A DNA stretch of 46,957 bases, taken from positions 1 through 46,957 of the forward strand of contig JACCXN010000026.1 of assembly GCA_013696965.1 (NCBI GenBank). Reading direction: 5' to 3'. A program made the position numbers and the translations under genes. This document shows positions 9,068 through 11,296 of the stretch, one piece after another. Position 1 is the stretch's first letter. Every line of letters starts with the position of its first letter. The notes below the pieces were generated by a model. It saw nothing but the letters and a program-made list of their open reading frames with translations, made no database searches and was not told the origin of the DNA. Source of the DNA: Bacteroidota bacterium. Lineage in GTDB: Bacteria; Bacteroidota; Bacteroidia; JACCXN01.

Positions 9068-9385
9068 TATTCAAACTTTCAAAAAACTAAATCCATTATC
9101 ATTCCTAAATGATTGTGAGGAAAAGAATCTAAAAGATTGATTTTATTTTGAGGATAATGGATGCTAAAATGTGAAATTATAACCACATTTTAAATGATTT
9201 AGGATTTACCGAAACCCATTTAATTTTTAATTATTGATAGATTACTAAAATGGGTAAATGGACTTTAAAAATGGCTTAAGAAAAATGACTAAAGAGAAAG
9301 CACAAGGAATTTCTTTTGCTGTTTCCGCACTGGAAACTTTACATCCATAATGTATTGTATTATTACATTTGTGATTAAACAAGAG
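9068..9385. other. Gene-free stretch with one perfect inverted repeat
   Basis: No gene is recognisable in this 318-bp AT-rich stretch. The only clear structure is the inverted repeat TAAAATGTG (9165-9173) / CACATTTTA (9184-9192) with a 10-base loop, about 100 bp upstream of the T9SS cargo gene. It could be an operator, or a terminator for something lost upstream. The part after 9240 may be residue of the group II intron whose 3' end follows. Confidence 0.4.
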
Positions 9386-9461
9386 GAGCTGTGTGAAGGG
9401 AGACTTTCAAGTATGGTTATGTGAGAACGCAAGGGTGAGATTCCATTGGTGACTCGATTGG
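9386..9461 (+). ncRNA. Group II intron relic: domain V and probable domain VI
   Basis: The 34 bases 9386-9419 fit group II intron domain V. They open with GAGC (the AGC catalytic triad), form a nine-position lower stem with several G-U pairs, then a two-base AA bulge on the 3' side, a five-pair upper stem GAAGG/CTTTC and a GAGA (GNRA) loop. The closing base is A instead of C, and the bulge is AA instead of the usual CG or AC, so some decay is likely. Bases 9422-9459, ending GACTCGAT, can fold as a domain VI-like arm. No reverse transcriptase frame or 5' intron part is present upstream, so only the 3' end survives. Confidence 0.7.
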
Positions 9462-9801
9462 CAGATAATTTTAATTATTTCTGTCCTGCTATAATTTAGT
9501 AGCAAAATTTCTTTCGCTCAATAAATAAATACGTAGCTCGTGGAGATTCTCTTTCTACATGGCCATCTATCCAATCTCTATGTTTAGGATTGTTTAGTAG
9601 ATTTGAAAATTCAGAAATTTAATAATTTTTGACATCTTCATCTGCATTATTCATTTCTTCCCATTTGGATTCACTATTTTCCAAAACATAAATAATGTCT
9701 TCAAAATCTTGGCTTGTTCGCTTCCATCATTTTCACCACGACTTTTAAAGGCTTCAAATTTAGTGGCTACCAAATAGGGAGCACTAAGGATTTTCACTGT
9801 A

Positions 9802-9927
9802 CCTTTTCTGCATACCCGCAGGTGGGGCTGGTTTGCAGCGTTTATGTCCACCGGCACGAAAGGTAATAGAAAGCAATGACTTTTCAAAATGCACCAAGCA
9901 CCCCACTTGAGTGTAGCAGTGTTATCC
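9802..9927 (-). repeat. attC-like imperfect hairpin at the cassette end
   Basis: Read on the minus strand, GGATAAC (9927-9921) is followed by ACTGC, TAC and GTGGGG. The far end returns CCCCAC, GTA, one unpaired T and GCAG. The arms pair in blocks separated by unpaired bases, as in attC sites with extrahelical bases. In the circular form the far end would be completed by GTTATAG from the leading edge, opposite GGATAAC (five of seven positions pair). The length of about 130 bases is within the attC range. The sequence is too degenerate for certainty. Confidence 0.45.
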
Positions 9928-9932
9928 AGTTT

Positions 9933-10322
9933 TTAATTCTTCTCATTACAGAATTTTAAGTGTGAAAGTCTCGTAAAATTTAATCTGTTTCGTGACTTAA
10001 TGGATTTTTCGTTTTTATCAATTGTCCATTTATTGTGAATTGCAAAATCTGAATTATAGTTTTTTAAAATAATTGTATTGTTCTTCGAAATCCAATTGCC
10101 ATTAATATCCACCTTTTTATTTGGGTTGGAATTGTTAAGGTAATGGAAAGTAAAATCTTCATTGATTGTTAGTTTAATATATTCAGAAGATTCAGAATTA
10201 TTACAATTACAAACACCATAAATTCCTGTTTTAAAATTTAATTTTTTGGAAGGCGGTTTTGTTTTAAATGACATTACTGTCAGAGCAACTAATATTGTTA
10301 AAAGTAGGTTCATCTTTTTCAT
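9933..10322 (-). CDS. Small exported protein carried by the cassette
   Basis: An intact 129-residue frame surrounded by decayed genes. The start at 10322 (MKKMNLLLTILVALTVMSF) gives a clean signal peptide with a basic N-region and a hydrophobic core. An upstream ATG would add 16 residues and a second hydrophobic stretch and is less likely. The mature part is strand-rich, with GIYGVCNCNNSESSEYIKLT, FTFHYLNN and NGNWISKNNTIIL, recalling small lipocalin- or NlpE-like proteins. No catalytic motif is seen. Three cysteines occur (two in the CNC motif, one near the C-terminus). The function is unknown. Its intactness inside a dead gene is consistent with recent arrival. Confidence 0.6.
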   Translation of the reverse strand: MKKMNLLLTILVALTVMSFKTKPPSKKLNFKTGIYGVCNCNNSESSEYIKLTINEDFTFHYLNNSNPNKKVDINGNWISKNNTIILKNYNSDFAIHNKWTIDKNEKSIKSRNRLNFTRLSHLKFCNEKN

Positions 10323-10788
10323 AGTATTAAGTTTTAAAGTTAATGAGATAAAAATAACAAATAAATTCATTCTGTAGCATATCTCTTTTGCTGTTCTGTC
10401 TCAAAATTGGCTATAACATCTTTCATTAATTGTGTGAGTAACTGCACGATTAAATCCTTCAGGATACCAAATTTTTCTGAACCCGATTGAAGGATCATTT
10501 GTTGGCATTAAATCCACAGTAATTCCTTGTATCCGATATCGGCACACCACACCCGACTCAATATCATGAGAAAAACCTATATCCCTCAGTTTATCTTCAA
10601 GATCAATTCTATCTTGATAGTTCAATATTTCTATTATTACATCCACATCATCGGTAGGTCTAACTTCGAGCACTGATCTGTCAGGATATAGAGATATAGT
10701 GGCTCATCCAACGAAAACCACTTTTTCTTTTATATTCTAGTGCATTGGCAACAGCTATAATTCTAATTATATTAATGTGATGGCTCAT

Positions 10789-11296
10789 CTAAAATAATTT
10801 TTTTAATTCATTAATAGCATATATTATTTCTCTAACTTTTCCTACTCGAATAACATCGACTAAAGCTAGTAATTTATAAAATTCTTGATCCTCAATTACT
10901 GCCTGAACTTGTTTTGCATAAAATGGTTCAATCATTAATCCCATTACTTTCCCTGTATTATCTGGCCAGGCATAATTCATTTCACTAATGAATTTTTTTT
11001 TCATGTATGGGTGAGATTGTGCTGTTAGGATCCCTCTTACCATCGAGCCTGGTTGTTGGGGAAAGACATACTTAACCGCATGCTCGAAAAATTCCATTAG
11101 ATTCTGCCTATTAATTTTCTTCTAGTTATAATTAATAAGACTTGCCAATTGACTTCTATTTAATGATTCGGAAATTTCAGAAATACTTATCCTTAATGAA
11201 CTGGAAAGCCCTACCAGTTACCAAGGCTTACTCAATAGATACAATTTTCAATAGAATTGCGATATCCTGTGTACGCATACCATTATGTTTTCTCAT
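10789..11296 (-). pseudogene. Decayed winged-helix regulator (probable antitoxin partner)
   Basis: The gene starts at ATG 11296 with MRKHNGMRTQDIAILLKIVS. After a nonsense codon and a frame change it continues with ISEISESLNRSQLASLINYN, a recognisable helix-turn-helix, then an in-frame TAG. It then runs as an open frame of 102 residues (10789-11097) with MEFFEHAVKYVFPQQPGSM, NYAWPDNTGKVMGL and LLALVDVIRVGKVRE. I recognise the combined pattern as a roughly 170-residue DNA-binding protein found beside nucleotidyltransferases, but I know no gene name for it. The TAG stop is directly followed by the ATG of the nucleotidyltransferase. The palindrome just upstream fits autoregulation. The 102-codon part may still be translatable, but it has lost the DNA-binding domain. 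Confidence 0.7.

Follow-up and report, generated by a model that had tools for sequence, protein, structure and literature searches.

Integron integrases (IntI) are identified by an additional domain, I2, which IntegronFinder requires (PMC9668308) and which has been called necessary for cassette capture, its gain being the key IntI innovation (PMC7790495). The attC sites on which the classical enzymes act are marked by a bulged (extrahelical) base on the R''-L'' arm (PMC2727003). An earlier survey took only integrases with the patch (PMC2426708), and Bacteroidetes have been reported to contain very few complete integrons (PMC9024848). Experiments have shown that cassettes can also insert at non-classical attG sites (Loot et al. 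2024, as relayed in PMC12901181 and PMC12444791). Here, we examine a 615-bp insert in a contig of a Bacteroidota bacterium of the class Bacteroidia (JACCXN010000026.1, assembly GCA_013696965.1, positions 1 to 46,957; hereafter the window, meaning this whole stretch of 46,957 nucleotides). The original prediction read the insert as an integron-like gene cassette lying inside a dead nucleotidyltransferase gene, a rare case of cassette spread to a non-attI site in Bacteroidota. This reading of the insert is supported by our analysis, with two amendments: the target, G|TA, is only loosely like GWT, and the insertion is not an orphan, as two arrays of an unorthodox type, each headed by a recombinase gene, are present in the same genome.

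A complete gene cassette interrupts a nucleotidyltransferase pseudogene without a scar

The insert has exactly the limits that had been predicted and lies on the minus strand, between host bases G (10417) and T (9801). Read on that strand, the host gene (...ATTAATGAAAGATG) ends at 10417, the insert opens with TTATAGCCAATTTT at 10416 and closes with ...GCAGAAAAGG at 9802, and the host gene continues with TACAGTGAAAATCC from 9801. The features of the insert are as follows.

9802..10416, minus strand: complete gene cassette, 615 bp, delimited by the scarless junction relative to an intact homologue and by complementary ends
10403..10417, minus strand: cassette start arm, G|TTATAGCCAATTTT; 10417 is the final host base
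9921..9935, minus strand: R'' arm, TAAAAACTGGATAAC, with 2 nt deleted relative to the cassette start
9798..9927, minus strand: attC from R'' to the R' junction, a covariance-model match (121.7 bits, E 9.6e-26 in 247 kb searched, under a model that this site, as 1 of 21, helped to build)
9901..9919, minus strand: inner stem, 5' (L'') arm, 1 base shorter than its partner arm
9808..9827, minus strand: inner stem, 3' (L') arm; the spacer measures 1 nt (9920) on the 5' side and 5 nt (9803-9807) on the 3' side

To place the junction, we searched 395 Bacteroidia genomes with the upstream piece of the host gene and compared both host pieces separately with the homologues found. The most similar intact homologue that could be used is L200 (226 aa; Pfam AbiEii, PADLOC PDC-M21B); the upstream piece aligns to its residues 40-123 and the downstream piece from its residue 126, with RC between them. 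Across the junction the L200 protein reads ...IDERC-TVKILSAPY without interruption, which bears out the predicted in-frame rejoining of NERC-TVKILSAPY. The DNA joins at exactly these positions as well: L200 has GATGAAAGGTG|TACGGTAAAAATA where the window has AATGAAAGATG|TACAGTGAAAATC, the right sides beginning TACGG (L200) and TACAG (window). Relative to this homologue we found neither a target duplication of the insertion sequence (IS) type nor any base gained or lost, and the insertion is therefore scarless.

The insert itself has the layout of a gene cassette, with a single open reading frame of 129 codons, an attC-like site at its 3' end, and limits at G|TT. Its start, GTTATAGCCAATTTT, is complementary to its own R'' (reverse complement GTTAT--CCAGTTTT) and was the best among 118 candidate starts. 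The two ends pair at 12 of 15 positions with a 2-nt gap, which corresponds to a 2-nt deletion in R''; this is the R''/R' complementarity within one cassette that belongs to its circular form. The terminal ~125 bp recurs on other contigs of the genome in copies 92-95% identical and, beyond these, in more diverged copies in tandem. When 21 such sites were aligned, two-sided changes were seen in 12 of 17 stem pairs, so the attC folds with covariation. Folded as a single sequence the window hairpin shows no unusual stability (z -0.74), and it is only by comparison that the site can be recognised; an Rfam scan returned no match to an attC family. The window attC retains both of the A.C positions described below, but deletions have removed 2 nt from R'' and 1 nt from L'', and its bottom strand is no longer the favoured one (-17.8 vs -18.6). 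It looks decayed.

This feature is best read as a natural insertion of a single cassette at an attG-like site, and from position, end complementarity, and conservation we infer that it works as an integron cassette does. As at attG sites, the target is neither attI nor attC, the crossover follows a G, and no duplication is present.

Recombinases in the same genome head attI sites and in-line cassettes

A covariance search had been proposed to find an attC-type fold. Our model, built from the 21 sites, recovered about 50 attC-like sites in the window genome, many of them in tandem in fragmented arrays. Short contigs and contig ends hold many of them, as would be expected because repeat arrays break assemblies. 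The genes within these cassettes are varied and mostly in the same sense. Lone and partial attC sites are dispersed across the genome.

Two contigs carry a recombinase gene at the head of such an array. Contig C14 encodes a tyrosine recombinase of 375 aa (L101:2321-3448, minus strand), behind which the attI region, cassette 1 (TTATAGGGC...GCCCTATAAC), and cassette 2 (TTATGCGGC...CCGCATAAC) follow in line. The recombinase on contig C44 (646 aa; L100:3214-5154) precedes an attI at +138 and then an attC at the contig end. Each of the two recombinases heads an attI site and in-line cassettes, and the arrays of its own genome are the likely source of the window cassette. The attC type found at C44 is elsewhere intermixed with the window's type within the same arrays, and because of this mixing the C44 recombinase is the candidate that would have moved the window cassette.

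The family occurs upstream of attI and attC-like arrays across species

One scan of Bacteroidota yielded 80 loci with recombinases of this family, and sites were sought with a detector that reads only YAAC, CGTTR, and the inner stem. Downstream of the 80 genes there were 115 attC-like sites in the sense orientation compared with 3 antisense (314 kb); upstream there were 3 in 699 kb. Shuffled sequence gave 7 sites in 1.1 Mb, and control loci gave 2 in 130 kb, both within an array that holds a distant relative of the window cassette protein. In 49 of the 80 loci the contig breaks off within 3 kb on the downstream side of the recombinase, and in 7 it does so within 3 kb on the upstream side. Another 18 loci, our second set, were picked from well-assembled genomes by the recombinase alone, and 12 of these have in-line sites.

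To locate attI, we searched the stretch from the recombinase to the first attC for a complement to the first R'', using neither distance nor sequence as a criterion. The crossover falls 70-170 bp past the recombinase stop in 40 of 44 loci, C14 and C44 among them, with the frequent ending TATAnACnAG|TT; attI lies beside the recombinase gene, as it does in classical integrons. Across species, recombinases of this family are found directly upstream of attI and attC-like arrays. The recombinase profile matches 147 of 295 Bacteroidia genomes, a set that has been checked for arrays in part, and a Chryseobacterium plasmid carries a recombinase of the family.

The attC-like sites follow a regular and asymmetric geometry

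Two regularities that the site detector did not demand recur from site to site. Outside the cut, the arms of one cassette pair over about 10 positions, never at position 11, and then over 4 more. Position 11 is A.C in 49 of 59 sites and an A opposite another unpaired base in the rest; it was likewise unpaired at all 16 sites of the second locus set. Within arrays, complementarity per position at positions 5-9 is 0.9 to a cassette's own end vs 0.3 to other cassettes. The central spacer is asymmetric, with 1 nt on the 5' arm against 5 nt on the 3' arm; the two differ by 4 in 88 and by 3 in 23 of 115 sites, and by 4 in all 32 sites of the window genome, the window site included. Inward of the spacer, most of the next 13 positions are paired, position 14 is an A.C (87/101), and about 6 further pairs follow. 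The A.C positions were not among the features on which the sites were selected, and neither was the spacer asymmetry.

In extrahelical bases and central spacer these sites depart from a classical attC: only 16 of 115 have a base bulging from the R''-L'' arm, and a spacer is present but is 1:5. On the bottom strand, the A.C positions become T.G wobbles. In the circle form, that strand is predicted to be the more stable one in 57 of 59 sites (mean -32.4 vs -27.7 kcal/mol); once the cassette is inserted, the outer arm faces the start of a neighbouring cassette and is mostly unpaired. By analogy with classical sites, the wobbles and the asymmetric spacer may mark the strand in place of extrahelical bases. 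As a control for arm complementarity we used classical IntI loci, which gave few sites with the same detector; there, own-end complementarity extends over ~8-9 nt with no fixed break at position 11, and one aadA16 site reaches ~12 nt. It is the regular unpaired position and the spacer that we claim as unique, not long end complementarity alone.

The recombinases lack the I2 domain

Both recombinases of the window genome score below the cut-off of the integron-integrase model TIGR02249, which aligns to them in two pieces with ~60 positions absent in between. The distance from the KGxxxR to the HxLRH motif is 56-57 residues in 56 of 57 family members measured, compared with 97-98 in nine classical IntI; the 57th member is an outlier (value 11) caused by a motif mismatch. 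In the alignment to IntI4, this interval comprises 66 residues in IntI4 vs 24 in the recombinase. Nearly all measured family members are without the ~41-residue insertion that is specific to IntI (I2, patch III).

The modelled C14 recombinase (pLDDT 87) has its best solved-structure matches, in the catalytic domain, to XerA (5hxy) and then to IntI (2a3v), and carries an extra N-terminal domain from residue 1 to about 75. It scores 217.8 against NF040815, for which the cut-off is 220. In the C44 recombinase, we observed ~350 additional N-terminal residues (L100:3214-4230), an extension that appears to be a further copy of the W-rich domain with which the shorter family members begin.

In a likelihood tree, the IntI sequences form one clade (100/99) with the patchless sequences outside it; the tree does not settle branching order or root. 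The C44 and IS91-associated recombinases fall closest to IntI, with long branches limiting what the tree can say of the origin. The rows nearest to IntI (95/86) are two tyrosine recombinases (L256, L257) encoded beside IS91-family transposases on two proteobacterial plasmids.

Origin of the insertion and competing explanations

Taken together, the window very probably contains a single cassette of the integron type that was inserted by a recombinase at G|TA and has since decayed, with an I2-less recombinase system as its source. On this account, the cassette would have been excised as a circle, then inserted by a site-specific tyrosine recombinase at a G|TA, neither attI nor attC, in the nucleotidyltransferase gene, and would have decayed in place afterwards. 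The recombinase is presumed to act on the folded bottom strand, as IntI does.

Several points weigh against this account. The family integrases are without the very domain described as necessary for capture (PMC7790495, PMC9668308), and 6 of the 18 loci in the second set have no detectable array. The nearest intact homologue of the host gene shares ~71% protein identity with it, which makes it an empty site at the level of the gene and not of a sister strain. The target was correctly predicted to be G|TA, but its likeness to the GWT consensus proved loose, with no strict match. Lastly, decay of the window attC in both arms (2 nt in R'', 1 nt in L'') and the loss of its bottom-strand preference leave its own complementarity imperfect.

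A different enzymology would be at work if the recombinases were Xer-like and acted on double-stranded sites, the palindromes being paired binding sites that never fold into hairpins. The catalytic domain, closest to XerA and then to IntI, the missing I2 domain, and the resemblance of each half-site to a recombinase-binding arm all fit such a scheme. However, the 1:5 asymmetry and the conserved wobbles make sense only in a folded strand, and both the covariation of the stem and the predicted preference for the bottom strand in 57 of 59 sites point the same way; we regard the Xer-type scheme as rather unlikely. It is also conceivable that a classical IntI from outside moves the cassettes and that the I2-less recombinases stand beside the arrays without being connected with them or have a different role, for example in dimer resolution. 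The reported requirement for I2 in capture (PMC7790495) would then be respected, and classical IntI does exist elsewhere in the phylum, above cut-off in 84 of 296 Bacteroidota genomes. Yet only one sampled genome of the window's class and none of its family has one; moreover, the site geometry is unlike that of classical attC, and the in-line position, fixed-distance attI, and array polarity recur over many species, so that we consider an outside IntI improbable.

The lone cassette might instead be what remains of a longer array (a CALIN) eroded by deletions. Array erosion does occur in this genome, given its dispersed lone and partial attC sites, but here the codons of the host gene join up precisely and no extra sequence is left. 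To lose the other cassettes so cleanly would itself take the recombinase, and even then this site would have had to receive the first insertion; erosion of an array is accordingly a very unlikely origin. Least credible is a miniature inverted-repeat transposable element (MITE) or an IS with attC-like ends. A ~125-bp palindromic element is indeed repeated many times in the genome, but it sits at one end of the insert only, there is zero target duplication, and tandem copies enclose different genes, each start being complementary to its own end. We rejected this candidate, as neither the target duplication nor the paired terminal repeats were found.

Host gene, cassette gene, and other features

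The interrupted gene and its upstream partner are annotated as follows.

10417..10783, minus strand: 5' part of the interrupted AbiEii-type nucleotidyltransferase pseudogene, from homologues, with the family taken from the intact homologue
9496..9801, minus strand: 3' part of the same pseudogene, matching the intact homologue from residue 126 onward; its end was read from the sequence
10786..11200, minus strand: upstream partner gene, also a pseudogene, with an in-frame stop near 11125; an intact counterpart lies beside the L200 homologue
9933..10322, minus strand: cassette gene, 129 aa, a predicted exported, lipocalin-like small protein (open reading frame, Bacteroidia relatives, model, and structure matches)

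The nucleotidyltransferase gene has frame breaks on both sides of the insert and is a pseudogene, in agreement with the proposal that the host gene is inactive. The cassette protein was modelled with pLDDT 87 and has weak structure matches to lipocalin-like folds; it is matched in 22 of 395 Bacteroidia genomes, the window genome counted. A search for it in other cassette arrays had also been proposed. One cassette in the array of another genome has a distant relative (33% identity) as its gene, but a canonical attC adjoins none of 17 closer homologues.

Other lone cassettes of the genome have the right flanks G|TAAC in one case and G|ATAT in another. The former is a second isolated cassette (L046:5007-5595, minus strand) with a DUF6933 gene and an attC, its flank again being G|TA. 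The left ends of the other isolated cassettes, this one included, were not fixable by start/end comparison. At several loci (L031, L032, L036, L037, L038, L039, and L041), cassettes with different genes begin almost identically over ~45 nt (GTAAGCRTTGCGC... or CGGCAGCCTCTTGGA...) and have the stretch TCGTGACTTTCTA... in common ahead of R''. These common starts and ends may be expression signals that the cassettes share, or they may reflect the way in which cassettes are formed.

Each of the two recombinase genes lies within ~0.7 kb of a tRNA gene (L100:2564-2635; L101:4151-4224); integrated elements often adjoin tRNA genes. Group II intron ends are present, antisense to the cassettes, on two cassette-bearing contigs (L033:7334-7411 and L036:4245-4322, both minus strand), and a group II intron reverse transcriptase (L254:14525-15841, minus strand) lies antisense to the cassettes inside the Chryseobacterium plasmid array. 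Introns that target attC are reported to lie antisense to cassettes. In the window, a group II intron domain 5-6 (9384-9458, plus strand; Rfam RF00029, 42.1 bits) is located immediately after the host pseudogene ends, antisense to the cassette, and a stretch 90% identical to it occurs at G000:C9:199435-199546.

Implications and comparison with known systems

Judging from sequence, the case is evenly balanced that Bacteroidota hold a second kind of integron, in which folded single-stranded cassettes would be captured without I2 by an enzyme reading two T.G wobbles and a 1:5 spacer. Such integrons may represent a side branch or the state from which IntI arose by gaining I2. Surveys based on I2 would miss these recombinases as integron integrases, because it is that domain they search for. 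Should the arrays prove active, an uncounted cassette-capture system may be present in as many as about half of all Bacteroidia species, the need for I2 would become directly testable with natural enzymes, and a rule-bound class of recombination sites would become available. The window cassette provides a natural example of spread into a chromosomal gene. Patchless integrons of Bacteroidota were not found described in the literature covered, which left out preprints and most subscription journals.

The insertion resembles the attG insertions of Loot et al. (2024), as far as these are presented in the papers citing them, in being a lone cassette at a G outside attI and attC with no duplication. 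It differs from them in being natural, old, and decayed, in its occurrence in Bacteroidota, in the non-IntI recombinase, and in its target, G|TA. With XerA-like recombinases (NF040815), the family shares the catalytic domain; unlike those, its members precede attI and cassette arrays and carry one or more W-rich N-terminal domains. The NCBI name for such proteins under NF040815, "site-specific tyrosine recombinase/integron integrase," is a name and describes no system. With classical sedentary chromosomal integrons (IntI, attI, attC), the system has in common a tyrosine recombinase, an attI, and tandem cassettes that each hold one mostly co-oriented gene and a 3' palindromic site, as well as a G|TT crossover, the R''-L''...L'-R' layout, and a bottom strand that is the more stable fold. 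It departs from them in having no I2/patch, extra N-terminal domain(s), a recombinase in line with its array, the 1:5 spacer, few extrahelical bases, and two conserved A.C (T.G) positions. As it parts from the classical integron in both integrase domain and attC geometry, the system is best called a variant integron.
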